Of a stretch of DNA of 64,000 nt, positions 46,294 to 60,779 are shown in pieces. The notes below the pieces were generated by a model that ran no database searches, was not told the DNA's origin, and was given only the letters and a program-made list of their open reading frames with translations. Source of the stretch: Microcoleus sp. AS-A8 (GTDB taxonomy: Bacteria; Cyanobacteriota; Cyanobacteriia; Cyanobacteriales; Coleofasciculaceae); NCBI GenBank assembly GCA_039962225.1, contig JAMPKV010000010.1, positions 124,001-188,000 of the forward strand. Reading direction: 5' to 3'. Made by a program: the position numbers and the translations under genes. Positions within the stretch are counted from its first letter, which is position 1; each line of letters opens with the position of its first letter.

Positions 46294-48426
46294 TTAAAAA
46301 CTAAATTGAGCGCGTAAATTACCTACGTAAATGGTCGGATTGCTGTCGAAGTTGTTCGCGTTCCCAATTAGATAAAACGCTGGAACGAGGGCAATATTAT
46401 TGGTTATGGGGTAGTGGTAAGTAAGCTCAAACTCGTATTGAGTACCACCATCCCCACCACCAGCGACCAAGAACCTACGACCACTTAAAACATCAAAGGG
46501 CACTAAAAATGATAGAGTTGCCAGTGCCCCCTGCTTACCTAAATCAGGGAAGCCTAACCCAAATTGGATCGATTGAGAATTAATGTTACCTCCCGATCGC
46601 CCAGGTGTGGATGGAGCGATCTCTGTGCTGGCATAGGAATAACGCCCGAAGATACCAAATTTGGAAGTAATTAGCCAGTCAAAGTTGAGTCCAAAAGCAT
46701 TCACCGTGGCTGGTTTAATTCGACCCCCTTGACCATCATCCGCCACCCCATATATGGGTTCTGCGCTCACCACACCTCCATTGTTATCGAGGGTGTTATG
46801 AGAATAGATCAGTCTGATATTCGCTGTTGAACTCGGTTTGTAAGTTAACTCAGCCGTGATAGTGTTGGTACCACTAAACAAACCCTTGCTTGGATTAGAT
46901 GAAGTGTTAAATCCAAAAGCAGCCGGTAAAAATTCATTATTCTCACCCAGATAGCCTACGTGCAAATCGAACTGCTTGCTGAGATTAATTAGGGCAACCA
47001 CTCCAGAACCACGATCGATCGGGTCATGAACAGTAGTGCCATTAGAGTTGAAAGTGCTACCCCCTGTGAGGAAGAAGGTAAAGGCATTGTTATCAAAAAA
47101 ACGATGCCAGTTCACGCGGGGGCCAACAACCAACTGCACCTTATTACTAATAGGAAACTGGTAGAACAAGTCATGGATAACCACCTCAGCAAACCCGTTA
47201 TTGGGTCCAGCCGTCTGATCGAGAAACGGAGTACCAAAGGTATTGAAAAGCCCTGCCGAAGCGAACTGGTTAGCGGGAGATAGGCCATTACCCGCCGCCA
47301 ACTGAGTTACCAAGAGATCTTTGCCCGTAAAGGAAGTGTTGAAGGTCAACCAGGCTAGACCACTCATGGTAATGTTTGGGTTCTCCACCTCCTGAACCAA
47401 GGGTCTACCATCTGCTCCTCGTCCAGCGAATCTAACATCAGGAGAGGCTGCATTGATTGCCTCCACTTTGACATTACGACCAGCAGTGGCTCCAGTCATG
47501 TCAAACCACGCTAGACCACTCAGCTTAGTCGTCGCAGAAAACTGATGGTCTTCTAAAAAGGCCACACGACCGTCTAACTTATCAACCCGTGTCCCCAAGC
47601 TAGCCAGTTCAGTTTTAAAATCCTCTGTCAGTCGTTGCAAGGTTTCTAAATCCTGGCGAGTCACGAACCCGTCTCCACCAGTTGTAATGATGCGCTCAAT
47701 TTGTTGAAGACAGGCGTTTAAACCTGCTGCAAATTCATAACGGCTGCTTGAACGATTACCCCGGAAGGTGCCGTCTGGGTAGCCAGCAATACAACCATAG
47801 CGTTCAACCAGCGATCGCAACGCCTCAAATGCCCAGTCTCCGGGAGAAACATCCCTTAGTTGCGTCACGTTGGTGACTTGTGACATAGGAGCGTTCGGAT
47901 CGCCGTCTCCCTCCCCTGAAGAGATCTCAGCTACAGACGGAACCTCTAACGTCGGTATATCAGCTAATGATTCGACAGGATTTGCCGGAGATATGGTCGG
48001 AGGAGGTGTTGAGACTGTGCCTTGAACTGGATTGGGATTAATTTCTATTTTGTCCGATGTCAACTCAGCTATCGAGGTGACTTGAGCAACAGGTACATTG
48101 AACGCATGAGGGAGAGACTGTAACTCTTGAGACAAGGGAGCGAGGTGATTTCCTCTTTGGTCGATGACGTTGAGCCCAGAGTCCTCCTTGTCTCCCTTTT
48201 CCTCCAACTGTTGGATACGCCCTTGGCTAACTGTAGACACTTCCACTGGAGTCTCGACCGAAGCTGGTGACGGGGGTATTTTTGCGATCGCTTCCTTGCC
48301 GGGAACCTCATCAGCCCTCGCCTGCAAGGCTAAACTGTGAACCATCACACTCGAAACTAACAAAGACATCCAGAACGTTGCTGAAGCAGAAAGCCAAGCT
48401 TTCTGGGTATTTGCATCCTTAATCAT
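46294..48426 (-). CDS. SLH-OprB outer-membrane porin (cyanobacterial Som/iron-uptake porin type)
   Basis: A 710-residue exported protein. It has a signal peptide, then a long Pro/Glu/Val-rich linker, then an S-layer homology domain (about 190-245, LRDVSPGDWAFEALRSLVER and GYPDGTFRGNR). A short coiled coil follows (TRVDKLDGRVAFLEDHQFSA), and then an OprB-type 16-strand beta-barrel ending in Phe (LRAQFSF), as barrel proteins do. The SLH domain anchors such porins to peptidoglycan. Relatives are major cyanobacterial outer-membrane channels, some linked to inorganic ion or iron uptake. Confidence 0.93.
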   Translation of the reverse strand: MIKDANTQKAWLSASATFWMSLLVSSVMVHSLALQARADEVPGKEAIAKIPPSPASVETPVEVSTVSQGRIQQLEEKGDKEDSGLNVIDQRGNHLAPLSQELQSLPHAFNVPVAQVTSIAELTSDKIEINPNPVQGTVSTPPPTISPANPVESLADIPTLEVPSVAEISSGEGDGDPNAPMSQVTNVTQLRDVSPGDWAFEALRSLVERYGCIAGYPDGTFRGNRSSSRYEFAAGLNACLQQIERIITTGGDGFVTRQDLETLQRLTEDFKTELASLGTRVDKLDGRVAFLEDHQFSATTKLSGLAWFDMTGATAGRNVKVEAINAASPDVRFAGRGADGRPLVQEVENPNITMSGLAWLTFNTSFTGKDLLVTQLAAGNGLSPANQFASAGLFNTFGTPFLDQTAGPNNGFAEVVIHDLFYQFPISNKVQLVVGPRVNWHRFFDNNAFTFFLTGGSTFNSNGTTVHDPIDRGSGVVALINLSKQFDLHVGYLGENNEFLPAAFGFNTSSNPSKGLFSGTNTITAELTYKPSSTANIRLIYSHNTLDNNGGVVSAEPIYGVADDGQGGRIKPATVNAFGLNFDWLITSKFGIFGRYSYASTEIAPSTPGRSGGNINSQSIQFGLGFPDLGKQGALATLSFLVPFDVLSGRRFLVAGGGDGGTQYEFELTYHYPITNNIALVPAFYLIGNANNFDSNPTIYVGNLRAQFSF

Positions 48427-48576: not shown

Positions 48577-49254
48577 CTAAGACTTCCACTTTTCCAGCGC
48601 TTGGAGAACGTTTGCCGTTGATGCCGTCCAACCCACAATGCCGGCTTGAGCAACAATCATGTCTAGCGTGGATTGTTTAAATTCTGGAAAGTAACTTTCG
48701 GTGGCATCTTCAACTAATAGACATTCAAATCCTCGGTCGTTTGCCTCTCGCATAGTGGTTTGAACGCAAACTTCAGTCGTTACCCCCGTAACCAGCAGGT
48801 GAGTAATTCCCTGTTCGTGCAGAAGAGACTCCAGGTTGGTGTTGTAGAATGCACCCTTTCCGGGTTTGGTAATCACTGTCTCACTAGGGAGGGGTTGCAG
48901 TTCAGGAATAATCGCATTTCCCGATTCACCGAGGACTAAAATCCGTCCCATCGGGCCAACATCACCAATTTTTAACTCACCCCGTCCCCGATGCCGCTTC
49001 GATGGCGGACAATCGGATAAGTCCGGTTGATGTCCTTCAATGGTGTGAAAAATTGGAAGTTTATCAGCTCGAAAGGCTTCCAACAACTGCTTGAGAGTCG
49101 GGACAATCGCTCTAAGTCGCGTCACATCATTACCCAAAGCATCACCAAAGCCCCCTGCTTCTAAAAAGTCTCGCTGCATATCGATAATCAGCAGCGCTAA
49201 CCCTCCATTAGCAGGAAGTTCGTAATCGTAAGGTTGAGCAGAGATTAAAACCAT
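48577..49254 (-). CDS. Isochorismatase-like cysteine hydrolase (second copy of the operon)
   Basis: A 225-residue alpha/beta amidohydrolase of the isochorismatase-like fold. The catalytic triad is Asp25 ([10 protein letters not shown]), Lys133 (TKPGKGAF) and Cys163 ([16 protein letters not shown]). It shares [15 protein letters not shown] and KPGKG blocks with the BiuH-like paralogue at 51514 and is probably an ancient duplicate. Amide hydrolysis of a small ureide is inferred from the paralogue. It is the last gene of the operon, beyond a MITE-like element. The start follows the family N-terminus; the ribosome-binding site is weak. Confidence 0.88.
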
Positions 49255-49331
49255 TGGAGAAAATAGGTAGGAGTCAGGAGTAGGGGCGGTGCCCCTGTGC
49301 CCGCCCAGAATTCAGTTGTAGGTTGGGTTGG

Positions 49332-49469
49332 AGTTATCCCAATTTCCTTTTCAGACGCTACACTTCGACCTCCTCACCCCCCTAATTCCCCTTACTCAGG
49401 GGGGACGTTAGAAACGCGGGGGGAGCAAGAAAAGTATCTGTAGTCAGCATTGAGGAAATTGGTATTACT
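49332..49469. mobile_element. MITE-like element, copy 1
   Basis: A 138-bp non-coding element between the cupin and the last hydrolase. Its ends, AGTTATCCCAATTTCC and GGAAATTGGTATTACT, are inverted repeats (14 of 16). The interior has C-rich and G-rich tracts and a GGGGGGAGCAAGAAAAGTATC-like segment that matches the copy at 53733. No transposase is encoded. Confidence 0.6.
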
Positions 49470-49493
49470 GAACCCAACATTGATTGATCGATA

Positions 49494-49847
49494 TCAACTC
49501 TTGTTCCGAAGCAAGACAGGTTTTTCCCAAATGGCAAGAACGATACAGCCTGCTTGACTAATCACGTTATGGTGAGTGTTCGGTGGGTTAATCACCAGAG
49601 TTCCAGCTTGGTGTTCGCCATTTTCATCGGTTTGTGAACCCGACAGGACAAAGATGTGTTCAAAACCCGTATGAACGTGCATCGGAACACTTGCCCCTGG
49701 CTTGTAGCGAAGTAGCGCGGCTGCCCCTCCCTCGCCATCTTTATAAAGTCGGTAGATATCGACTCCAGGATGAAACGGTTCCCAAGACAGCTCATCCTGT
49801 CGTGTAGCGATGTCGAGTAAGTCTTTGAGGATTAAAACTCGTTGCAT
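49494..49847 (-). CDS. Cupin-domain protein (ChrR-like)
   Basis: A 117-residue single-cupin protein. GASVPMHVHTGFEHIFVLSG supplies the first cupin motif with its histidines and glutamate, and GTLVINPPNTHHNVIS the second, so a divalent metal site is likely. The sequence resembles the anti-sigma ChrR cupins and the small sugar/ureide-binding cupins. It overlaps the stop of the ABC ATPase gene by one base (TAATG), so the two are translationally coupled and it belongs to the operon. Role: enzyme or sensor for the transported compound, inferred. Confidence 0.85.
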   Translation of the reverse strand: MQRVLILKDLLDIATRQDELSWEPFHPGVDIYRLYKDGEGGAAALLRYKPGASVPMHVHTGFEHIFVLSGSQTDENGEHQAGTLVINPPNTHHNVISQAGCIVLAIWEKPVLLRNKS

Positions 49848-51394
49848 TAGTGTCCTGCCATGCGTTGACCAATCGTGGCAAAGTCAGCATCTGCGATCGC
49901 ACTTTCGTAAACAAAGCGCCCTTCACTCATCACCAAAATCCGGTCAGCCAGTTTTAAGAGTTCATCCAAGTCTTCACTCACCAGCAGTACCGCTACGCCT
50001 CGGTTGCGTGACTCAACGATAGACCCATGAATATACTCCACAGCCGCAAAATCCAAACCAAAGCAGGGATTCGCCGCAATCAGGAGATTAATGCGATCGC
50101 CCGATAATTCCCGCGCCAACACCGCACGTTGCACATTTCCCCCAGAAAGATTGCCGATGGGTGTGTCGGGTGAGGGCGTTTTAATCTTGAACGTGTTAAT
50201 CAAACCTTGAGCCATCTGTCGCATCGCCTTGAAGACGAGTAACACGCCCCCTTTCGCTTGGGGAGGACGGTCAAACGTCCGCAAGGCAAGGTTTTCTGCC
50301 ACACTCATGTGAGGTACGCAGGCATTGCGGAGGGGTTCTTCCGGTAGCGAGAAAACTTGATGCCGATACATCTCGGCTCGTGTTGCGGTATAAACTTCTC
50401 CATTAACCCACACTTGCCCAGACGTAGCAGGACGCTGTCCGGCTAAGACTTCCACCAGTTCCCGCTGTCCATTGCCGGAAATCCCAGCAATTCCAACAAT
50501 TTCGCCACTGTTTACCGTCAAATTTATATCCTTAATCGCTTCAACGCCATTCTCTTTGTCAGCATGGAGGTTCTGCACCTGAAGCACCGGTTTGGGGTTG
50601 AGATGTGGTGTTTTTTCCACCTGTTGCGGTTCCCGCCTCTCACCCATCATCATCTCAGACATGTCTGAGACAGTGAGATTTTTTACCAATCCGTGACCTG
50701 CAAACTTGCCCTTACGCAATACAGTAATTTCATCGCAAAATGCCATCACTTCGCGGAATTTGTGGCTAATGATTAATACACTTAACTTTCCCGCCGTAAC
50801 TTCCTCACGCAGTAATCCTAAGACTTCATCCGCTTCTTGAGGAGTTAGCACAGATGTAGGTTCATCTAATATTAAGATACGAACCTTGAGGTAGATCTGC
50901 TTGAGAATTTCCAGCTTCTGCTTCTGTCCAGCCGCTAATTGAGAAATAGGGATATCTAAGGGAACTTGGAAAGGCGCAGTTTGCATGAAGGCTCGTAAAC
51001 GAACGTACTCCTCTTTCCAGTTAATTAAATTAGGACTGTCAAACTGTGACAGAACAAGGTTTTCAGCAACAGTCATGGCAGGCACAGACGTAAAGTGCTG
51101 ATAAACCATACCAATCCCGTACTTGTGAGCATCACGAGGGCTCTCAATACTACGGCTTTGCTTATCAATCAACACTTCGCCAGAGGTAGGAGTGTGAAAC
51201 CCCATAATGCACTTAACCAGAGTACTTTTACCCGCCCCATTTTCACCCAATAAAGCATGAAACGTTCCCGGTTTCAGATGCAGTGAAACATTATCCAGAG
51301 CCGTAAAAGTACCAAATTGCTTAGTCATCTTCACCACCTCAAGCTCTGGTGGCTTCGTTAGCTCGACAGTTGTTCTTGCTGTTGCAGTACTCAT
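49847..51394 (-). CDS. ABC transporter ATPase, double NBD (BMP/nucleoside type)
   Basis: A 515-residue protein with two fused nucleotide-binding domains, the usual form in BMP (basic membrane protein)-type importers. Domain 1 has Walker A GENGAGKSTLVK, a variant signature LAAGQKQKLEI and Walker B LILDEPTSVLT. Domain 2 has the degenerate Walker A GISGNGQREL, signature LSGGNVQRAV and a degenerate Walker B (LLIAANPCFGLD), which is typical for the second half. It powers the two permeases upstream and overlaps the cupin gene by one base. Confidence 0.95.
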   Translation of the reverse strand: MSTATARTTVELTKPPELEVVKMTKQFGTFTALDNVSLHLKPGTFHALLGENGAGKSTLVKCIMGFHTPTSGEVLIDKQSRSIESPRDAHKYGIGMVYQHFTSVPAMTVAENLVLSQFDSPNLINWKEEYVRLRAFMQTAPFQVPLDIPISQLAAGQKQKLEILKQIYLKVRILILDEPTSVLTPQEADEVLGLLREEVTAGKLSVLIISHKFREVMAFCDEITVLRKGKFAGHGLVKNLTVSDMSEMMMGERREPQQVEKTPHLNPKPVLQVQNLHADKENGVEAIKDINLTVNSGEIVGIAGISGNGQRELVEVLAGQRPATSGQVWVNGEVYTATRAEMYRHQVFSLPEEPLRNACVPHMSVAENLALRTFDRPPQAKGGVLLVFKAMRQMAQGLINTFKIKTPSPDTPIGNLSGGNVQRAVLARELSGDRINLLIAANPCFGLDFAAVEYIHGSIVESRNRGVAVLLVSEDLDELLKLADRILVMSEGRFVYESAIADADFATIGQRMAGH

Positions 51395-51513
51395 AAACTA
51401 AGACCTACTAATCAATAGTCAACTCAAAAACTTTGCGTTCCTCTGCGTAAACCTCAGCGTTCCTTGCGTTAAAAAAACTTGCATTTTCTGTAAAATTGTG
51501 CAGCCTACCAAAA

Positions 51514-52251
51514 TCAGTTACTTTGCACAACAGAATACTCTGATATTTGAAGGTCGGCGGCTGCATTTTCCCCTTGAATCGCTTCAATAAACGCTGCTGA
51601 ATCAGCAACAGCGCCAAAAACGCCCCCTTGCATTTTGATCATCTTCAGTGCCGCCAAATAATTGCCATAATCCGTTGCCGCCGTGCAATCAGATAGCATC
51701 AAACACTCATACCCTCGGTCATTCGCATCCCGCATGGTCGTATGAACGCAGACATCCGTAGTCACCCCAGTCAGGATGATGTTCTGAATACCCTTGCGTT
51801 TGAGCAACAAATCGAGGTCTGTAGCATAAAATGACCCTTTTCCGGGCTTATCGATAATGGCTTCTCCAGGTAGGGGAGCGAGTTCCGGGATAATTTCCCA
51901 CCCTGGCTCACCTCGTACCAAAATCTTGCCACAAGGGCCGGGGTCGCCAATCCCTGCTCCAAGCTGACGCGATCGCCACTGCTTATTTTCTGGTAAATCA
52001 GATAGATCGGGGCGATGTCCTTCACGGGTATGTATCACATGGAATCCCTTCTCCCGTGCTGCTGCCAGGACTTTGCGAATGGGTTCAATCGGAGCACGAG
52101 TTAAAGATAAGTCATATCCCATCTTGTCCACATAGCCACCAATACCACAGAAATCGGTTTGCATATCGATAATCAGCAGCACCGTATTTTCTGGACGCAA
52201 ATCCCCGTTATAAGGATAAGGATAGGGGTCAGCATCAACAAAACGTCCCAT
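51514..52251 (-). CDS. Isochorismatase-like amidohydrolase, close to biuret amidohydrolase (BiuH)
   Basis: A 245-residue cysteine hydrolase. Catalytic triad Asp29 ([10 protein letters not shown]), Lys138 (DKPGKGS) and Cys168 ([12 protein letters not shown]). The blocks [44 protein letters not shown] and [10 protein letters not shown] agree closely with my memory of rhizobial BiuH, which hydrolyses biuret to allophanate and ammonia. The start at 52251 has GGGAGG six bases upstream; an upstream frame continuation is not used. It lies 11 bp after the AtzF-like gene. Annotation as biuret hydrolase is likely, but substrate remains to be tested. Confidence 0.8.
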
Positions 52252-52262
52252 GTTTAACCTCC

Positions 52263-52667
52263 CTAAGTACTGGATACGCGGTTGCTCAGCGCTTCCATGT
52301 AGGCACGCCAACCGCCCCATTGAGTAATTTCGGACTTGTTTTCGCAGCAAATTGGTTCGCCTAAAACTCCCAGAACGACTTCACCATCACTAAGACGGAC
52401 TTTACCGATGCACAATCCGGCTGGTTCTTGTAGCAAAATTGTGCCAAGACTCGCGGTAGGGACTGCCCAAACTTCAACGGCGATCGCAACTCCCCCTTCT
52501 CGAACTCGCAACATGGCTGGATAGCGGTCATTAATCGACCACAAGCGATAGACGGGTTCTGTCGTCGCTTCTCGTACAAATGTTGCTCCAACTGTTAAGA
52601 GATTGCCGTTTAGTTCCAAGCCTCGCATCAACGTCCCATTCACTGCAATATTTAAAGTTTCTGGCAT
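52263..52667 (-). CDS. Allophanate-hydrolase C-terminal-domain-like protein
   Basis: A 134-residue stand-alone protein whose sequence matches the C-terminal domain of allophanate hydrolase AtzF ([59 protein letters not shown]), the gamma-glutamylcyclotransferase-like domain that decarboxylates N-carboxycarbamate in AtzF. The amidase half with its Ser-Ser-Lys triad is missing here and elsewhere in the window. Cyanobacterial copies are often called glutamyl-tRNA amidotransferase, which is misleading. It lies 11 bp before the BiuH-like gene, so a role in ureide breakdown is likely. Confidence 0.82.
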
Positions 52668-52743
52668 CGAAATTGTTAATTTTTAGTAGTACACCACTGT
52701 GAATTCAAAAGCCAAAATTCAAAATTCAAACAAAATTTTGAAT

Positions 52744-53670
52744 TTAATTACTAGCCCCCAAAGCCCCTGGTGCGCCGCTTACAGTGCGTTTAGGAGAGCA
52801 GGTAATAATCATGATTAACAGTGTTAAAACATAGGGCGCAGCATTAAATAGGTAATAACCCTGAGTGATACCCACAGATTGCAACGCGGGGCCAAGTGAT
52901 TGTGCTCCACCAAATAGTAAGGACGCATACAGACACTGTATCGGTTGCCAGTGGGCGAAAATCACGAGTGCAACAGCCATAAGTCCTTGACCACTGGAGA
53001 TACGTTCGCTCCAGATACCGGGATAGTAGAGAGATAGGGAAGCACCGCCAATTCCAGCTAAAAAGCTCCCGCCAACAATGCACAACATCCGCACTTTTTT
53101 GATAGAAACTCCCATTGCTCTAGCCGCATCGGGACTATCACCAACCGCACGGATAAATAAACCCCAGCGAGTTGATTTGAAAAACCACATCATGAGAGGT
53201 GCAAGTGCAACACCGAGTAGGAACAGTGGACTAATTTTCAACGCCGATTGCAGTGCTGGCATACTGCTCCAATTTCCCAAATCCAATGTCGGTAGTTGTG
53301 GGGCTTTAGGTTGAATAAAAGGCTTCCCTAAGAAGAAAGCCAAACCACTCCCAAAGATAATCATGGCAATACCAACAGCAACATCGTTAACTCTAGGTTG
53401 CTGAGTGAGCCAAGCATGAATGAAACCCAAAATCATCCCAGATAACCCAGCCGCGATAACTCCCAACCAAGGCGAACCCGTCAGGTAAGAAACCCCATAG
53501 GCCGTCATGGCTCCCATGAGTAATGTGCCTTCCAATCCCAGATTGATTTTGCCGCTTTTTTCCGTCAGGCATTCTCCCAAGCTGACAAACAGAAACGGCG
53601 TACCCCCTCGCATAGTTCCTGCGGCGATCGCTAAAGGAACTCCCAACCAGCCCAATGCTTCTGTGGCCAT
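52744..53670 (-). CDS. ABC transporter permease (BMP/nucleoside type), second permease
   Basis: A 308-residue integral membrane permease of the BPD_transp_2 superfamily (branched-chain/ribose/BMP-type). About eight to nine hydrophobic segments are spread through the chain, with the family EAA-like region RAVGDSPDAARAMGVSIKKVR (about 170-190). AGGAGG sits seven bases before the ATG. It partners the 361-residue permease upstream on the same strand; a MITE-like element lies in the 214-bp gap. It forms the channel with that permease. Confidence 0.92.
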   Translation of the reverse strand: MATEALGWLGVPLAIAAGTMRGGTPFLFVSLGECLTEKSGKINLGLEGTLLMGAMTAYGVSYLTGSPWLGVIAAGLSGMILGFIHAWLTQQPRVNDVAVGIAMIIFGSGLAFFLGKPFIQPKAPQLPTLDLGNWSSMPALQSALKISPLFLLGVALAPLMMWFFKSTRWGLFIRAVGDSPDAARAMGVSIKKVRMLCIVGGSFLAGIGGASLSLYYPGIWSERISSGQGLMAVALVIFAHWQPIQCLYASLLFGGAQSLGPALQSVGITQGYYLFNAAPYVLTLLIMIITCSPKRTVSGAPGALGASN

Positions 53671-53732
53671 TAATTTCCTCCTTTTTGTCTGTGAATATAG
53701 TTGCAGGTTTGCAGGTTGAAGGTTAGCAAGCT

Positions 53733-53837
53733 ATACCAATTGGCTTTTCCAATGTCACATTTGGAACCCCCCCAGCCCCCCGATGTTTTGGGGGGAGCAA
53801 TTAGAAAATAAGTATCGAACTCAAACCCAATTGGTAT
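53733..53837. mobile_element. MITE-like element, copy 2
   Basis: A 105-bp non-coding element between the two permease genes. Ends are ATACCAATTGG and CCAATTGGTAT (11-bp perfect inverted repeat). The interior has a CCCCCC/GGGGGG hairpin and a GGGGGGAGCAATTAGAAAA segment shared with copy 1. It contains no transposase. Confidence 0.65.
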
Positions 53838-53884
53838 TACTAGTTAGAACTTTTCAACGTTCAACATTCCAACTTTCAACCCAT

Positions 53885-54970
53885 TTAGACGGTTGCTGTT
53901 GCTGGAGAGCCAATAACTTCTGACCGCTCTTTGAAGATTGGCAGCCGTCCGTAGAGCGATTCACTGTACATAACCACTAAGAAAACCAACCCTTGAAATA
54001 CGAGAACAGTGGCATCCGGTAAATTATGCACCCGCTGCAAGATACCACCACTCGCAAGGATACCGCCGACTAAAACCGCAACTAGGGTGGCAGCAAGCGG
54101 GTTATGTCGGGCAATAAACGCGACTAAAATACCGCTGTAGCCATAGTTAGCATTGAGAGATTCATTGGCTCGACCCTGCACGGCGGCAACTTCCACCATG
54201 CCTGCTAATCCCGCACAAGAGCCAGCCAGGAAACAAATTGCCATGGTTAGCTTACCGACTGGGAGTCCAGCAATTCGAGCGGCTCGAATATTGCCCCCGG
54301 CGGTACGTGCGGCGAAGCCAAAGGTTGTGCGCTGGATCAGGAAATAGGCAATAACACAGGCAATCAACCCATAAATCAAACCGTAGTGAACGCGGGTACC
54401 GGGAATTTTGCCCAGCATATCGGCATCGGGAATGGGGTAGGTGGAGGGCTTATTGAGAGAAGTGGGGTCTTTCATTGGCCCACTCACCAGATGGTTCAGC
54501 AGTGCGATCGCAATATAATTCAACAACAAACTACTAATGGTTTCATTCACGCCCCGGTAGTGACGTAACGCTCCTACTGAGCCAATCCACAAACCCCCGC
54601 AGATGAGTCCTGCCAGTGCCATCCCGATTTGCACGAGGGTGGGGGGTGCACCTTGCAGTGCTAATCCTGCCGCTACAGCCCCGATTCCACCCATCACCAA
54701 TGCGCCCTCATTACCAATGATGATCAAACCCAAGCGGGCAGGGAGTGCTGTACATAAAGCCGTTAACATCAAGGGAGCTGCCCGAATCAGCGTGTTCTGA
54801 AACGATCGCCAATTCCCAAATGCGGCCTTATAAATCGAAGCATAAACCGCAAAGGGATTTGCCCCCGCCAAAGCACAGAAAATTCCAAAGAGTACCAAGG
54901 AAAAAAGGAGAGCGGCGATCGGGATGCAAATCGCTTCTAGTGTTGTACGCCACCGAGAATGATTGAGCAT
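53885..54970 (-). CDS. ABC transporter permease (BMP/nucleoside type), first permease
   Basis: A 361-residue integral membrane permease with about eight to ten hydrophobic segments. Its family signature block is RTAGGNIRAARIAGLPVGKLTM (about 230-252), followed by EVAAVQGRANESLNANYGYSG, as in YufP-type subunits. It pairs with the 308-residue permease, and together they form the heterodimeric pore. It lies 196 bp downstream of the substrate-binding protein gene. No strong ribosome-binding site is visible. Confidence 0.92.
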   Translation of the reverse strand: MLNHSRWRTTLEAICIPIAALLFSLVLFGIFCALAGANPFAVYASIYKAAFGNWRSFQNTLIRAAPLMLTALCTALPARLGLIIIGNEGALVMGGIGAVAAGLALQGAPPTLVQIGMALAGLICGGLWIGSVGALRHYRGVNETISSLLLNYIAIALLNHLVSGPMKDPTSLNKPSTYPIPDADMLGKIPGTRVHYGLIYGLIACVIAYFLIQRTTFGFAARTAGGNIRAARIAGLPVGKLTMAICFLAGSCAGLAGMVEVAAVQGRANESLNANYGYSGILVAFIARHNPLAATLVAVLVGGILASGGILQRVHNLPDATVLVFQGLVFLVVMYSESLYGRLPIFKERSEVIGSPATATV

Positions 54971-55166
54971 GATTAACGGTTGATTTGATTATTGCTCCCC
55001 GGAGGGATTGTTTTTGTGGGTATTACTAGGATGTGTTTTTTTAACGCAGAGGATGTCGCTGAGGGTCGCAGAGGAGTTAGAGGAGTTGATTCTTGCGTTT
55101 TTATGGAGGTTTGCCGATAGGCTTTAGTCATTGGTAATGAGTAATTAAGGAGTAAATGAATAGGGA

Positions 55167-56348
55167 TTAACTGCCGACTTTGCCAACGACGCCTGCAACC
55201 AGCCAATTCATCTTTTCTAGTTCGCCGTCTTGCTGTTTTAAATCCTTACCCGCTGGAATGACGATTTTGCCTGTGTTATCTTGCAGTCCGCCTTTGTAAA
55301 CCACCATGCTGCCGTCTATAAACTTGGCTTTAGCGGCATCAGCATCTTTTTTGGCATCAGCGCTGACAGCAGAACCGTAGGCCGATAGCTTTAAAAATCC
55401 TTCCTTAAAACCCCCACGAACTAAGTGTGGAATGCCTCCATTCATCAAGGTTTTGCCAGCGCGAATCATTTCCGCATATTTGGAATAAACATTTGTCCAA
55501 TCCCACTCTGCACCCGTGAGATATCCTTTAGGTGCTAGCACAGCTTGATTGGCGTGGTAGCCAGTCGTGAAAATGCCGCGTTTTTCAGCGGTTTCTACAA
55601 TCACTTTGGGACTGTCTACATGGCAGGTGATTACATCAACCCCTTGGTCAGCCATACTGTTAGCCGCTTCTGCTTCTTTAACAGGTAACGACCAATCTCC
55701 TGTGAAGATGACCTGAGTAGAAACTTTTGGGTTAACGCTACGTGCGCCCAAGGTAAAGCTGTTGATATTCCGCAGTACTTGGGGAATTGGTTTAGCCGCA
55801 ATGAACCCTAATTTGCCAGTCTTGGAAGCTTTGGCGGCAACAATGCCTGCTAGATACTCAGCCTCATCAATGAAACCAAAGTAACTACCAACATTTTTCG
55901 GGTGTTTCCCTTCTTGATACAGTCCGCCACAGTGTAAAAATTGAACCTCTGGGTACTCTTGGGCAAGTTTTAGGACATGGGGGTCAAAGTAACCGAAAGA
56001 GGTGGGAAATATAACCGTAGCTCCATCTTGTTCGATCATGTTCCGCATCGCTTCCTGGACATCGGTAGTTTCCGGAACATTAGCTTGCTCTACGCTTTTG
56101 ACCCAGGTTAATTTGGAAACCCCAGCTTTCCCCTCGGCGTGGGCTTGGTTATAGCCATAATCATCTTTGGGTCCCACGTAAATGAATCCCATTGTTATGG
56201 GCTTACTTGCGCCACCCGAACTGGATTGACTTCCGGTTGATGAACTGCAACCCGTCCCAAATTTCGAGGTCACCCCAAAGGCTGTGGTCGCTAAAAGTCC
56301 ACGAACAACTTGACGACGGGATAAGTGAAAAGACCTACTAATACTCAC
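55167..56348 (-). CDS. BMP-family substrate-binding lipoprotein with Tat-type signal
   Basis: A 393-residue periplasmic binding protein of the BMP/Med family, the receptor of this importer. The N-terminus LSRRQVVRGLLATTAFG contains a twin-arginine motif, followed by a lipobox-like TGC at about residue 33-35 and a Ser/Gly-rich linker, so it is probably a lipoprotein exported by Tat. BMP-fold blocks are MGFIYVGPKDDYGYNQAH and the substrate-pocket DQGVDVITCHVDSP. The start is GTG, preceded by GGGGAG nine bases upstream. BMP proteins usually bind nucleosides or purines; this genetic context suggests a ureide instead (inference). Confidence 0.92.
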   Translation of the reverse strand: MSISRSFHLSRRQVVRGLLATTAFGVTSKFGTGCSSSTGSQSSSGGASKPITMGFIYVGPKDDYGYNQAHAEGKAGVSKLTWVKSVEQANVPETTDVQEAMRNMIEQDGATVIFPTSFGYFDPHVLKLAQEYPEVQFLHCGGLYQEGKHPKNVGSYFGFIDEAEYLAGIVAAKASKTGKLGFIAAKPIPQVLRNINSFTLGARSVNPKVSTQVIFTGDWSLPVKEAEAANSMADQGVDVITCHVDSPKVIVETAEKRGIFTTGYHANQAVLAPKGYLTGAEWDWTNVYSKYAEMIRAGKTLMNGGIPHLVRGGFKEGFLKLSAYGSAVSADAKKDADAAKAKFIDGSMVVYKGGLQDNTGKIVIPAGKDLKQQDGELEKMNWLVAGVVGKVGS

Positions 56349-56702
56349 TCGTTATGACTCCCCTTGCGAAAGGATGTAGAGGTGTAGCGGCATCGCCGTT
56401 TTTGCCCTCCTCGCTAACGCTTGACTGTGGTTTGTGTCAGCTCTTGCGTTAAGCAGAGATTAACAGGATGAATGCAGTTCTAGGGTTCTAAAAGGTGCGA
56501 AAAAGGTGCGAGGAAAGTTCGCAGAATGTCACTAAATTGACAGTGGACAAATTTAGAAAACTGTAGTATCCAATTCTACCCATTACAGAAACCCTTCCAG
56601 CATAGGGTTTTGGCTTGTGTTTGTTGGTGTTGGGGAGTGAGTGAATCGGAATCGTGATGTGTGTATCTGCTGCCAGATCGTTTAACTGGGCTTTTTTGAG
56701 CC
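56349..56702. other. Divergent promoter region
   Basis: About 350 bp between the BMP operon and the NB-ARC gene, which point away from each other. It should hold both promoters. No gene or clear repeat was recognised; a 111-codon minus-strand frame overlapping the NB-ARC start is a shadow. Confidence 0.5.
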
Positions 56703-59700
56703 ATGAATCCTGAAGAAGCACTGACAATTGTTGAGCAAGCTTTAAGTGAAGACCGTTTAAGTAAGCTGCAAGTAACGGTATTTCGTCATGCTTGGGAAGA
56801 GCAGTCGTATCAAGCGATCGCAAAAACTTCCGGTTATGAGCTGGGTTATGTCAAGCAGACGGGTTCCCAGCTATGGCAGTTACTCTCCAAAGCCTTTGGA
56901 GAAAAGGTTACTAAAAGTAACGTTCAATTGGTATTGAAGCGAAAAGCGCGGGAAAAAAGTCAGGAGTTAGGAGTCGTAGGGGCGAGTCATGACTCGCCCT
57001 TACAGGAGTCAGGAATAACCAAAAACCAGCAACACCTAATCCAAAATCCAAAACCCGCCCGCAGGACGCAGTCCGATAGCGAAGCGGGCGAGCGTACCCG
57101 CTCGACGGACGGCAAAATCCAAAATCGCAGGGATTGGGGAGATGCTCCAGATGCATCCGTGTTTTACGGACGGAATGAAGAACTGGTAACTTTGGAACAG
57201 TGGATTGTTCAGGATGGTTGCCGACTGATTGGTTTGTTTGGTATGGGTGGCATCGGCAAAACCTCTTTATCCGTGAAGTTAGCCAAACAAATTCAGGATG
57301 AGTTTGAGTGTGTCATTTGGCGCAGTCTTCGCAATGCGCCACCCCTTCAGGAACTCCTAGCAGATTTAATTCAATCCTTAGCCATTCAACAGAATGCGAC
57401 ACTGCCCGATACTCTCAATGGTCGTATTTTGTATCTGTTGGACTGCTTACGTCAACATCGTTGTTTGATTGTCTTTGATAATGTCGAGACTATCATGCAA
57501 CCTGGCGATCGCAGTGGAAGTTATCTAGCTGGGTATGAAGGCTATGGTCAGTTATTGAAATGTTTGGGGGAAACTGACCATCAAAGTACTCTGATGCTGA
57601 CCAGTCGAGAAAAACCCAAAGAAATTGCTGCGATCGAAGGGAATTATTTACCCATTCGCTCCATGCGATTAACTGGATTGTGCAAGAGTGCCGTACAGAA
57701 TATTTTCAGCGTTAAGGGCGATTTTGCAGGTTCATCTGAAGAATGGAGGGTATTAGTTGAACATTATGCAGGTAACCCTCTGGCTTTAAAAATGGTCGCT
57801 TGTGCGATCAAGGATTTCTTTGAGGGTAGTATCGCCAATTTCCTCGAATGCTTACAACAGGGTGCTTTAGTTTTTGGAGATGTTCGAGATTTATTAGCCC
57901 ACCAAATTGAGCGCTTGTCGAATTTAGAGCAACAGGTGATGTATTGGTTGGCAATTAACCGAGAACCTGTAACGCTGTCAGAATTACGATCAGATTTTGT
58001 CCCTCAAGTATCCCTCGCCGATTTACTCGAAGCGTTATCGTCTTTAGAAAGGCGATGTTTGCTCGATAAGGCTACACCGACCCTAATTGAACAGAACCGA
58101 AATTTTTTCACTCTACAACCTGTCGTCATGGAATACATGACTGACCGATTGATTGAACGGGTTTGTATAGAACTTATGAGATTCGTAGGGGCGACGCCTG
58201 GGTTGTCCCTACAGGGGTTGGGGCTTTGCCTGTTCAAGACTCATGCTCTGATAAAAGCTTCAGCTAAAGACTATATTCGAGAAACCCAAATTCGCCTCAT
58301 CCTCAAACCCGTTGCAGACAAGTTACTCCATGCTAGTAGTAAGGAACAACTGGAACACCAATTCAGGCAAATTCTATCAGAACTGCGGGGCAAATCGTCC
58401 CAAGAAACAGGCTATATTGGCGGGAATGTTTTGAACCTTCTTTACCAACTTTCCTCCGATCTAAGCGGTTGGGATTTTTCCCATCTTACGGTTTGGCAAG
58501 CTTACCTGGAACGGGTCAATCTTCATGAGGTTAATTTTGCTCACACGAATCTAGCGAAGTCAGTATTTACAGATACGTTCAGTCAAATCTTATCGGTTGC
58601 CTTCAGTCCCGATGGTCAGCTATTGGCGACTGGGGATGTGAATCATGAAATTCATGTGTGGCAAGTTGAGACGGGCAAACAACTGTTAAATTGCAAAGTA
58701 GATGAAGGCTGGGTTTGGTGTGTTGCGTTTAGTCCTGATGGTCGTTTTCTGGCTAGCAGTGCTAACCGAACAGTTAACCTTTGGGATGTGCAAACTGGGA
58801 AATGCATTAAGCAGTTTCAAGGATATAGCGATCGCGTATTTTCCCTAGCCTTTAGTCCCGATGGTCGTCTCCTCGCTACTGGTAGCGAAGACCGTTGGGT
58901 AAGGATTTGGGATGTTAGAACAGGCCAACTTTTAAAGATTTTATCAGGACACACTGACGAAGTTCGCTCTGTTACCTTTGCTCCACAATATTCTGGAAGA
59001 AGAACACAGAACACTTCAAGGCACAGGGAGAACCCATTACCCATTACCCATTACCCATTACCCATTAACTCTACCCCCCTAACCTCGGAATATCTCCTTG
59101 CCAGTGGTAGTTACGACGGTACGGTGCGATTGTGGGATATTAATCAGGGTGAATGTTTAAGAATTCTAGAGGAACACAGCGACCGAGTTTGGTCAGTCGC
59201 CTTCAGTCCGGATGGGAAAACCCTCGCCAGTAGCAGCAGCGATCGTACCGTAAAATTGTGGGAGGCTAGCAGTGGGAAATGCCTCAAATCTTTACGCGGA
59301 CACTCCCAGCAAATCCGAACCGTTGCCTTTAGTCCGGATGGAAAAACCCTCGCCAGTGGTAGTGATGACCATTCTATCCGTCTCTGGCATCAGCATACGG
59401 GTGAATGCCTGAGAGTGCTTCAAGGGCACACGAGTTGGGTTTCGTCTGTCGCCTTTAGTCCTGTGAGCAAAGCGGTAGCGACTTTAGGCGCGTCTGATTG
59501 TTTATTAGCCAGTGGCAGTGAAGACCAATCTGTGCGGTTATGGGAGACGCGCACCAACCTCTGTCTAAAAACCATACAAGGACATAGTAATGGAGTGTGG
59601 TCGGTCGCGTTCAGTCCTCAAGGGACTACTCTCGCGAGTGGGAGTCAAGATGGTGTAATTAGGTTTTGGAATAGCAATACAGGGAAATGTATTAGAGAAT

Positions 59701-60779
59701 TCTCAGCACACAGCAGTTGGATTTGGTCTGTAACATTTAGTCCCAATAGTCAAATTCTTGCCAGTGGCAGTGAAGACCGAACGATTCAATTATGGGATAT
59801 CCTCAGCGGGCAACGTCTGAAAACGCTGACAGGACATAAGGACGCGGTTTTTTCCGTCCTCTTTAGTCCTGATGGGCAAACCCTTTTGAGTGGGAGTCTC
59901 GACGGCACGATCAAAGTTTGGGATATTCGTACAGGTGAATGCCGCAAAACTTTGCAAGGACATCGGGGTGGCATCTGGTCGATAAGCTTGAGTTCGGATG
60001 GGAAACTCCTCGCCAGTGGTAGCCAAGACCAAACGCTCAAGCTATGGGATGTGGACACAGGTTACTGTATCAACACCTTGCAGGGGCATAGGAGTTGGAT
60101 ACGCGCTTGTGCCATTAGTCCCGATCGACAAATTCTGGTCAGTGGTAGTGCAGATGGCACGATTAAGCTTTGGCAGGCCAACACCGGAGAATGTTACCAA
60201 ACATTACAGGCACACACAGGGCCAGTGTTGTCAGTTGCTTTCGACCCAGATGAGCAAACCTTTGCCAGTAGCGGTGTGGATGGGTTAGTAAAACTCTGGA
60301 ATATCTCGTCTTTGCCAAGCTGCCAAATTTTGCAAGGGCATGATAAATGGGTGCGGTTCCTCGCTTACAGTCCTGATGCCCAAATTCTGGCAAGCTGTAG
60401 TCAAGATGAAACGATTAAGCTATGGAAGGTCAAGCCGGACTCTTCTGGGATATCCTTGTCTCACTCCTCGACCTTGGTTACACCTAGGGAGTACAACACC
60501 ACTTGGATGAGTACGTCTATCTCTTCGGCAAAGGTAACCCTTGCACTTCCTCTGGGGATGACGCCCATAGAGGGTGAGTATCAGCTTGGGTTGACACCGC
60601 GCAAAGGGACGATTAACACAAGACAAACTCAAAATTCTCAAGACAGTTTCAGTGCGCGTATCAAAACGCTCCGAATTCCTAGACCCTATGAGGGAATGAA
60701 TATCACGGATATTACGGGTTTGACAGCCGCTCAGAAATCCACACTGAAAATGCTAGGGGCTGTTGATGACAGGGATTGA
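56703..60779 (+). CDS. STAND NTPase: vMAP-type HTH, NB-ARC and 14 WD40 repeats
   Basis: A 1358-residue protein. Residues 1-85 match the winged-HTH N-terminal domain of vWA-MoxR-associated proteins (LSKLQVTVFRHAWEEQSYQA, GEKVTKSNVQLVLKRK). After a linker, the NB-ARC NTPase has a P-loop GMGGIGKT (180-187, Lys186) and Walker B CLIVFDNVE. Residues about 620-1250 form 14 WD40 repeats, so two seven-bladed propellers, with typical VAFSPDG and LASGSxDxTIKLWD blocks. The C-terminal tail ends PYEGMNITDITGLTAAQKST. Such proteins act as signalling switches, and relatives in bacteria serve in phage defence; that role is inferred. Three palindromic or tandem repeats are translated inside it. Confidence 0.92.
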   Translation: MNPEEALTIVEQALSEDRLSKLQVTVFRHAWEEQSYQAIAKTSGYELGYVKQTGSQLWQLLSKAFGEKVTKSNVQLVLKRKAREKSQELGVVGASHDSPLQESGITKNQQHLIQNPKPARRTQSDSEAGERTRSTDGKIQNRRDWGDAPDASVFYGRNEELVTLEQWIVQDGCRLIGLFGMGGIGKTSLSVKLAKQIQDEFECVIWRSLRNAPPLQELLADLIQSLAIQQNATLPDTLNGRILYLLDCLRQHRCLIVFDNVETIMQPGDRSGSYLAGYEGYGQLLKCLGETDHQSTLMLTSREKPKEIAAIEGNYLPIRSMRLTGLCKSAVQNIFSVKGDFAGSSEEWRVLVEHYAGNPLALKMVACAIKDFFEGSIANFLECLQQGALVFGDVRDLLAHQIERLSNLEQQVMYWLAINREPVTLSELRSDFVPQVSLADLLEALSSLERRCLLDKATPTLIEQNRNFFTLQPVVMEYMTDRLIERVCIELMRFVGATPGLSLQGLGLCLFKTHALIKASAKDYIRETQIRLILKPVADKLLHASSKEQLEHQFRQILSELRGKSSQETGYIGGNVLNLLYQLSSDLSGWDFSHLTVWQAYLERVNLHEVNFAHTNLAKSVFTDTFSQILSVAFSPDGQLLATGDVNHEIHVWQVETGKQLLNCKVDEGWVWCVAFSPDGRFLASSANRTVNLWDVQTGKCIKQFQGYSDRVFSLAFSPDGRLLATGSEDRWVRIWDVRTGQLLKILSGHTDEVRSVTFAPQYSGRRTQNTSRHRENPLPITHYPLPINSTPLTSEYLLASGSYDGTVRLWDINQGECLRILEEHSDRVWSVAFSPDGKTLASSSSDRTVKLWEASSGKCLKSLRGHSQQIRTVAFSPDGKTLASGSDDHSIRLWHQHTGECLRVLQGHTSWVSSVAFSPVSKAVATLGASDCLLASGSEDQSVRLWETRTNLCLKTIQGHSNGVWSVAFSPQGTTLASGSQDGVIRFWNSNTGKCIREFSAHSSWIWSVTFSPNSQILASGSEDRTIQLWDILSGQRLKTLTGHKDAVFSVLFSPDGQTLLSGSLDGTIKVWDIRTGECRKTLQGHRGGIWSISLSSDGKLLASGSQDQTLKLWDVDTGYCINTLQGHRSWIRACAISPDRQILVSGSADGTIKLWQANTGECYQTLQAHTGPVLSVAFDPDEQTFASSGVDGLVKLWNISSLPSCQILQGHDKWVRFLAYSPDAQILASCSQDETIKLWKVKPDSSGISLSHSSTLVTPREYNTTWMSTSISSAKVTLALPLGMTPIEGEYQLGLTPRKGTINTRQTQNSQDSFSARIKTLRIPRPYEGMNITDITGLTAAQKSTLKMLGAVDDRD
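56976..57003. repeat. GTAGGGGCGA-type palindrome inside the coding region (linker)
   Basis: A nearly perfect 28-bp palindrome (GTAGGGGCGAGTCATG half) lies in frame in the linker before the NTPase. Direct repeats of AATCCAAAA flank a further insertion at about 57041-57128, so the linker appears built from intergenic repeats. Confidence 0.65.
58185..58212. repeat. GTAGGGGCGA-type palindrome inside the coding region (after NB-ARC)
   Basis: GTAGGGGCGAC and GTTGTCCCTAC form an 11-bp stem (two G-U-type pairs) around six bases. It is translated in frame as FVGATPGLSLQGL. It shares its first ten bases with the palindrome at 56976. Confidence 0.6.
59033..59067 (+). repeat. Five tandem CCCATTA heptamers inside WD40 blade 4
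   Basis: Five exact copies of CCCATTA (35 bp) are translated within a roughly 35-residue insertion in the fourth WD40 repeat (PITHYPLPIN-type). Heptamers of this class are typical intergenic repeats of cyanobacteria; the reverse complement unit also occurs at 44385-44403. Confidence 0.8.

Follow-up and report, generated by a model that had tools for sequence, protein, structure and literature searches.

Organisation of the operon and its two hydrolases

In the 64,000-nucleotide stretch of Microcoleus sp. AS-A8 investigated here (GCA_039962225.1, contig JAMPKV010000010.1, positions 124,001 to 188,000), hereafter the window, eight genes on the minus strand between 48577 and 56348 resemble an operon for taking up and degrading triuret and biuret. 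All eight open frames claimed by a first-pass annotation of this DNA are present and belong to the families it proposed, with Pfam E-values from 3.6e-49 to 7e-21. From 5' to 3', the genes encode a BMP/PnrA-type substrate-binding protein of 393 aa related to AtzT (55167-56348; Bmp, 1.5e-40), two importer permeases of 361 and 308 aa (53885-54970 and 52744-53670; BPD_transp_2, 3.2e-30 and 1.5e-41) whose order is conserved in related loci, a standalone AH_C protein of 134 aa proposed as an allophanate decarboxylase (52263-52667; AH_C, 2e-41), a predicted biuret hydrolase BiuH of 245 aa (51514-52251), the double ATPase of the importer, with 515 aa (49847-51394; ABC_tran, 3.6e-49, in two stretches), a ChrR-type cupin of 117 aa, which may be the carboxybiuret decarboxylase TrtB (49494-49847; Cupin_7, 7e-21), and a predicted triuret hydrolase TrtA of 225 aa from the Isochorismatase family (48577-49254). 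The cupin and ATPase genes share a single base at 49847, as had been noted before. We placed the BiuH start at 52251, which leaves 11 bases between it and the AH_C stop, and a GGGAGG immediately before it is read as a ribosome-binding site; a longer frame with a TTG start (278 aa) overlaps the AH_C gene and was used for family and profile scoring. The same-strand block probably extends to an OprB-type porin at 46294-48426.

Of the two isochorismatase-like hydrolases in the first-pass annotation, the one called BiuH-like is indeed of BiuH type, while the other, left unnamed there, is of TrtA type. The closest solved relative of the 48577-49254 protein is 6xix (282.3 bits), the TrtA structure of Herbaspirillum (PMC7948467). 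Between this hydrolase and Herbaspirillum TrtA, 133 of 214 aligned residues are identical, including all 15 TrtA positions tested, and the catalytic Asp24, Lys129 and Cys162 correspond to D25, K130 and C163. An alignment with BiuH and TrtA, proposed earlier as a check, has thus found both the Asp-Lys-Cys triad and the specificity residues in the TrtA-type protein. Six positions are described as discriminating TrtA (F35, N41, A134, E160, Y187, I205) from BiuH (Y, Y, S, D, T, V) (PMC7948467); the 48577-49254 hydrolase carries the TrtA residue at all six and the 51514-52251 hydrolase the BiuH residue at all six. The latter also scores 417.1 bits with NF050097 (on the longer frame), above the cut-off of 370, against 246.7 bits for the TrtA-type protein, and is identical to BiuH from R. 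leguminosarum at 171 of 226 residues. On these sequence features we assign the two enzymes as TrtA and BiuH, respectively. Since the second hydrolase carries the TrtA signature, the pathway most likely starts at triuret. In the main, the earlier idea of nitrogen scavenging by a full importer coupled to hydrolases of biuret type holds, with the starting substrate shifted to triuret.

From 386 genomes of the phylum, 13 encode a hydrolase above the NF050097 cut-off (BiuH+ genomes). A second hydrolase of 239 to 257 bits was found in all 13, within about 3 kb of BiuH in 11 of them. In 9 of the 13, the window included, the genes for the binding protein, both permeases, BiuH, the ATPase and TrtA are on one strand. 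Among the remaining ones, G133 is cut by contig ends, G170 has its genes split over the genome, and the importer is absent from the stretch read in G193 and G346. We also collected the best 80 loci of named genomes by TrtA alignment, from cyanobacteria, proteobacteria, Nitrospira, Verrucomicrobiales and others, many of them cut by contig ends. A TrtA frame was called in 76, and 29 of these have the six core genes on one strand. Plasmids of R. leguminosarum WSM1325 and Agrobacterium MA01 contain the same importer, BiuH, TrtA-type hydrolase and cupin, the former cluster additionally with AtzD and a formamidase and the latter with AtzF. The grouping of these genes is not a product of chance. A lack of synteny in related genomes had been named beforehand as an argument against a biuret or ureide role; the comparison was run and the gene order is conserved. 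One decayed operon was also observed (L050, in genome G215), where biuH and the AH_C gene are broken and the trtA and ATPase frames are open.

A separate family of standalone AH_C proteins

The 134-aa protein, which has a solved relative in 5c5z, had been described as similar to the C-terminal domain of AtzF. Its membership in the AH_C family was correct, but it belongs to a separate standalone clade and not to the clade of AtzF C-domains. We searched AH_C proteins in a first set of 80 genomes, composed of the 13 BiuH+ genomes, G215 (with broken biuH), G177 (TrtA-like gene only) and, as controls, 65 members of the same family, order and class with no BiuH above the cut-off. Three groups were distinguished, AtzF-type, class A (133 to 141 bits) and class B (97 to 116 bits). 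Class A is present in 12 of 13 BiuH+ genomes and in none of the 65 controls (Fisher p 3e-13, kinship not corrected), and in the tree described below all 12 proteins group with the class A clade. The sole BiuH+ genome without class A, G060, has AtzF. Two controls (G203 and G336) have short AH_C fragments scoring as AtzF-type; the AH_C gene of G215 is broken along with biuH, and G177 has no AH_C. In G011, G346, G170 and G193 the class A gene is encoded far away from the operon, and the association therefore goes beyond gene neighbourhood.

A second set contained 48 further TrtA+ genomes (of 79), 27 of them cyanobacterial by title, in which AtzF was sought only through its AH_C domain, so that an amidase without this domain would be missed. 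Among the 27 cyanobacteria, 25 have class A, one has a fused AtzF (G389) and one a two-gene AtzF (G403). Nine of the 25 class A proteins were seen in fetched loci, 15 were confirmed by class profile and the last (G417) is a contig-end fragment scoring as class A. The 15 reach 204 to 223 bits with a class A profile built without them, against 93 to 106 bits with the AtzF profile. The 21 non-cyanobacterial genomes comprise 13 with fused AtzF, one with a contig-edge fragment (G425), four with class A (G408, G418 partial, G423 and G426), two with AtzF-like AH_C (G415 and G416) and one without AH_C (G428). Altogether, 40 cyanobacterial genomes with BiuH or TrtA include 37 with class A AH_C (one a fragment) and 3 with AtzF, and in none of the 40 were both seen together. 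Similarly, 23 of the best 80 named loci have AtzF (3 of them as an amidase frame without the C-domain) and 14 have a standalone AH_C, none having both; the 14 include L136, where an overlapping frame had masked the AH_C.

In the genome of the window itself, no frame exceeds the AtzF TIGR02713 cut-off (511 bits), the best amidase having 212.3 bits, which rules out at that cut-off an AtzF hidden elsewhere. In a tree of 59 AH_C sequences, the class A clade has a support of 93/79, the AtzF C-domain clade 99/90 and class B 100/99. The AtzF clade also contains the cyanobacterial two-piece AtzF, and the class A clade spans cyanobacteria, Nitrospira, Rokubacteria, Verrucomicrobiales and one E. coli ColV plasmid. 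Class A proteins have NGTLM where AtzF has GAHL. By this distribution, class A AH_C takes the place of AtzF in cyanobacteria with the triuret/biuret pathway.

Other candidates were set aside. Class B proteins are not the same thing, as they occur with and without BiuH and are often located beside genes of purine-breakdown type (7 places: L156-L160, L166 and L167). Several of these adjoin an M20 amidohydrolase, an OHCU decarboxylase or a putative allantoinase of polysaccharide-deacetylase fold, a purine/allantoin reading made partly by eye. A formamidase-like gene, considered as a substitute for AtzF, was found in 18 of the 76 loci, accompanying AtzF in some and AH_C in others. Assigning the AH_C class by Pfam score alone is unsafe, since the protein of G416 has a class A-like 132.7 bits and is nevertheless AtzF-like by class profile. 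The AtzF-like AH_C copies without amidase at L170, L176 (G415) and L173 (G416) are beside genes for peptide-type ABC transporters.

Proposed route from triuret to ammonia

The cupin has His57, His59, Glu63 and His93 invariant in 10 of 10 aligned sequences, which we interpret as a metal site. Of the 13 BiuH+ genomes, the cupin was found in 8, and its gene adjoins trtA in 34 of the 76 TrtA loci scored, proteobacteria included. It is not peculiar to this organism, a change from the first-pass view of the cupin as a sign of novelty. TrtB is described as co-occurring with TrtA and AtzD (PMC7948467), and its protein family is not named in the literature searched. The cupin is probably TrtB, the carboxybiuret decarboxylase, judging by its gene neighbourhood, because it sits with TrtA, is present in 3 of 4 AtzD loci (the fourth, L117, is cut short) and was not found in two Nitrospira loci (L118, which ends inside AH_C, and L131). 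In line with this, comammox contigs, a group to which the L118 and L131 Nitrospira may or may not belong, are reported with 'atzF' and without trtB (PMC12625717). The published 'atzF' of similar comammox clusters may be a short standalone AH_C protein.

For the binding protein, the best solved relative is AtzT (6pi5, 228.7 bits), in which guanine is contacted by Tyr45, Ser97, Glu165, Trp194, Asn218 and Asn220 (PMC6834077). Three of these six contacts differ in the window protein, with Q, H and D replacing Glu165, Asn218 and Asn220. We compared 53 binding proteins from TrtA loci, the window included (one locus enters twice, as L035 and L089). Ser97 and Trp194 are retained in all 53 and Tyr45 in 44; Asn218 is changed to His and Asn220 to Asp in the same 52 (the exception is L138), Glu165 to Gln in 45, and all three changes are found in 44. 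We read the pocket as rebuilt for a flat urea oligomer. Triuret and biuret are the presumed transported compounds, and the uniform changes in the guanine pocket agree with a triuret/biuret pathway.

In the proposed route, the porin and the AtzT-like ABC importer would take up triuret and biuret. TrtA would convert triuret to carboxybiuret with release of one ammonia, and carboxybiuret would give biuret by the action of the cupin (probably TrtB) or by spontaneous loss of CO2. BiuH would then produce allophanate and a second ammonia, the standalone AH_C, replacing AtzF, would convert allophanate to urea and CO2, and the cell's own urease would release the last two ammonias. We estimate a probability of a little under 0.6 that the operon serves to take up and degrade triuret and biuret and ends through AH_C, urea and urease instead of AtzF. 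What we infer are the reactions of AH_C and the cupin, the compounds transported, the part played by the porin and the control by nitrogen; sequence comparison shows the assignment of TrtA and BiuH with their specificity residues, the conservation of the operon, the lack of AtzF and the presence of urease in the window genome, and the replacement of AtzF by class A in cyanobacteria with the pathway. The C-domain of AtzF is a decarboxylase of N-carboxycarbamate, as described in the literature on the yeast enzyme. Allophanate, itself an N-carboxylated urea, is described as giving urea and CO2 unaided (PMC6219798); an enzyme for this step would allow urease to complete the route. The first-pass annotation had left the last step unexplained, noting the absence of the AtzF amidase, urea carboxylase and urease from the window. 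In the whole genome this gap persists for AtzF, with none above the cut-off, but not for urease, which is encoded outside the window (G000:C8:202923-204653, 991 bits). All 13 BiuH+ genomes and 42 of the 48 genomes of the second set have a urease alpha above the cut-off. In a Verrucomicrobiales locus with BiuH, TrtA, the cupin and class A AH_C, urease alpha is about 6.5 kb from the binding-protein gene.

Several observations weigh against this route. Urease alpha is nearly universal, being above the cut-off in 77 of the 80 sampled genomes, which makes it no test of the urea step, and it was discarded as a discriminating marker; in two cyanobacteria with class A (G387 and G412) only pieces of urease were found. 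The AtzF C-domain is reported as dispensable for the amidase step (PMC3944691). The cupin was not found in the fetched stretch of 5 of 13 BiuH+ genomes, the TrtA+ genome G428 has no AH_C at all, and support for the class A clade is only moderate (93/79), with a long-branch warning elsewhere in the tree. In an E. coli ColV plasmid, class A AH_C is located beside genes for AllG, a carbamate kinase and a cytosine permease, and related plasmids carry a TrtA-like hydrolase; class A also accompanies AllG and carbamate kinase in two Nitrospira loci and one Rokubacteria locus. Class A may thus act on another N-carboxylated ureide, and these neighbourhoods make its exact substrate uncertain, which is our main reason for caution. 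They suggest a second pathway ending by carbamoyl transfer, a step that could replace urease where AllG and carbamate kinase are present. We discarded AllFGHK as part of the cyanobacterial pathway, since AllG (PF06545) was found in 0 of 13 BiuH+ genomes and its hits in the second set (G418, G423, G426 and G432 of 48) are all non-cyanobacterial.

The same operon could also work with AH_C in the role of TrtB, allophanate decaying unaided to urea and the cupin serving, for example, in sensing. We consider this unlikely. In its favour, carboxybiuret is an N-carboxylated urea like allophanate, and the AtzF C-domain is a decarboxylase of such a compound. The TrtB that is described as occurring with TrtA and AtzD (PMC7948467) has no family named for it in the literature searched. 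However, class A replaces AtzF and not a gene of TrtB type. Cupin and AH_C are on one strand in the window, L035, L037, L043, L076, L077, L079 and L101, so within one locus they are not alternatives. Of the 4 AtzD loci, the 3 with the cupin and the truncated L117 all lack a standalone AH_C. The Nitrospira loci, with AH_C present and no cupin found, and the comammox contigs, with 'atzF' and without trtB as reported in PMC12625717, point in the same direction.

Still less probable is that AH_C and an amidase encoded elsewhere form a two-piece allophanate hydrolase. Such enzymes are real in cyanobacteria, with the amidase gene adjoining AH_C in G060, G338 and G403, but the AH_C of G060, G185 and G338 is in the AtzF clade, that of G403 scores as AtzF-type, and none is class A. 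The best amidases of the window genome have 212 and 210 bits, against 584 to 776 for real AtzF; genomes without BiuH have amidases of equal scores, and G346 has only two amidase matches. The least probable reading is an operon for a different natural ureide or purine breakdown product, with hydrolases merely similar to TrtA and BiuH. Importers of this type carry nucleosides and purines, and a deaminase-like gene is beside the operon in G215. AtzT, the nearest solved relative of the binding protein, holds guanine (PMC6834077). On the other hand, the six TrtA-type and six BiuH-type residues are all present, and the guanine contacts of AtzT are altered uniformly.

The route preferred here, from triuret to urea, belongs to a known kind of pathway, and its new part would be the role of AH_C in replacing AtzF. 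The triuret pathway of Herbaspirillum and rhizobia (TrtA, TrtB, BiuH and AtzF; PMC7948467) has the same TrtA and BiuH types clustered, but here the host is a cyanobacterium, with no AtzF in the genome and a standalone AH_C clade instead. In clusters of floodplain nitrifiers (PMC12625717), biuH and trtA likewise adjoin a bmpA-nupABC importer, and that study attributes the final steps to atzF or a GatA-like amidase, in many cases accompanied by allFGHK, whereas the window genome has no AtzF above the cut-off and AllG was not found in it. The cyanuric acid pathway of R. leguminosarum (AtzD and BiuH; PMC5806882) has the same BiuH type, and the related WSM1325 cluster shares importer, TrtA-type hydrolase and cupin with the window operon, but no AtzD was found in the 30 cyanobacterial loci scored. 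From AtzF itself, which has the AH_C domain in common, the window protein differs by the lack of the amidase half, by its separate clade and by NGTLM in place of GAHL. We found no published description of a cyanobacterial triuret/biuret operon, a weak absence since subscription literature was mostly outside the search; triuret genes in some phytoplankton are mentioned in passing in PMC7948467.

We suggest, tentatively and at somewhat less than even odds, that cyanobacteria have a second ending of triuret/biuret breakdown, in which a dedicated AH_C family decarboxylates allophanate for urease, and that in Nitrospira and on E. coli plasmids this family works together with AllFGH and carbamate kinase to close a related pathway by carbamoyl transfer. 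For R. leguminosarum, where no atzF adjoins BiuH, two papers leave the fate of allophanate open (PMC5806882, PMC6219798). With a 134-residue protein co-inherited with BiuH and TrtA in the place of AtzF, the fate of allophanate after BiuH becomes directly testable. If the proposal is true, a family whose members are currently annotated as stray allophanate hydrolase pieces or as glutamyl-tRNA amidotransferase would gain a function, and triuret and biuret would be nitrogen sources for cyanobacteria, with urease at the end.

Flanking genes and further loci

The OprB-type porin, which has an SLH domain (46294-48426, minus strand; OprB, 6.9e-20), is 150 bases downstream of trtA. Within the sequence fetched, 7 other loci encode a relative, which in L079 follows trtA after about 30 bases. 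The porin could be the outer-membrane entry. On the other side of the operon, a divergent gene (56703-60779, plus strand) encodes a WD40-repeat protein (1.5e-166), read as a STAND-type signalling ATPase. In 9 of 20 other cyanobacterial loci, a relative of its N-terminal part is encoded divergently to the gene for the binding protein, and the copy adjacent to the operon is the best genome match in the 3 other genomes tested (G005, G011 and G060). This protein is a possible regulator.

The divergent upstream region contains a GTA-N8-TAC site (56566-56579), which matches the NtcA consensus. Among 21 cyanobacterial operons, 9 (that of the window and 8 of the other 20) have such a site in the 350 bases upstream, with 2.06 expected, a count reached in 0 of 500 single-base shuffles; the background is 55 of 908 tiles. 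This would be consistent with control of the operon by nitrogen. Against it, the motif is frequent throughout the window (16 sites, 6.55 expected) and the site at 56566-56579 has no good -10 box, as judged by eye. A simple scan for promoters and terminators gave no excess over shuffles.

Some loci with related genes were recorded in addition. The culturable cyanobacterium Pseudanabaena biceps PCC 7429 has biuH, the ATPase, the cupin and trtA at L096, and its class A AH_C is encoded elsewhere in the genome. E. coli and Klebsiella plasmids (L057, hits H97-H104) have a TrtA-like hydrolase beside a DUF2877 gene. In pAPEC-O2-ColV, the hydrolase is in two pieces, near genes for AllG (DUF1116), carbamate kinase, class A AH_C and cytosine permease, which together look like a gene set for some ureide. 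The Nitrospira loci L131 and L118 contain AllG, carbamate kinase, the importer, BiuH, TrtA and a standalone AH_C.

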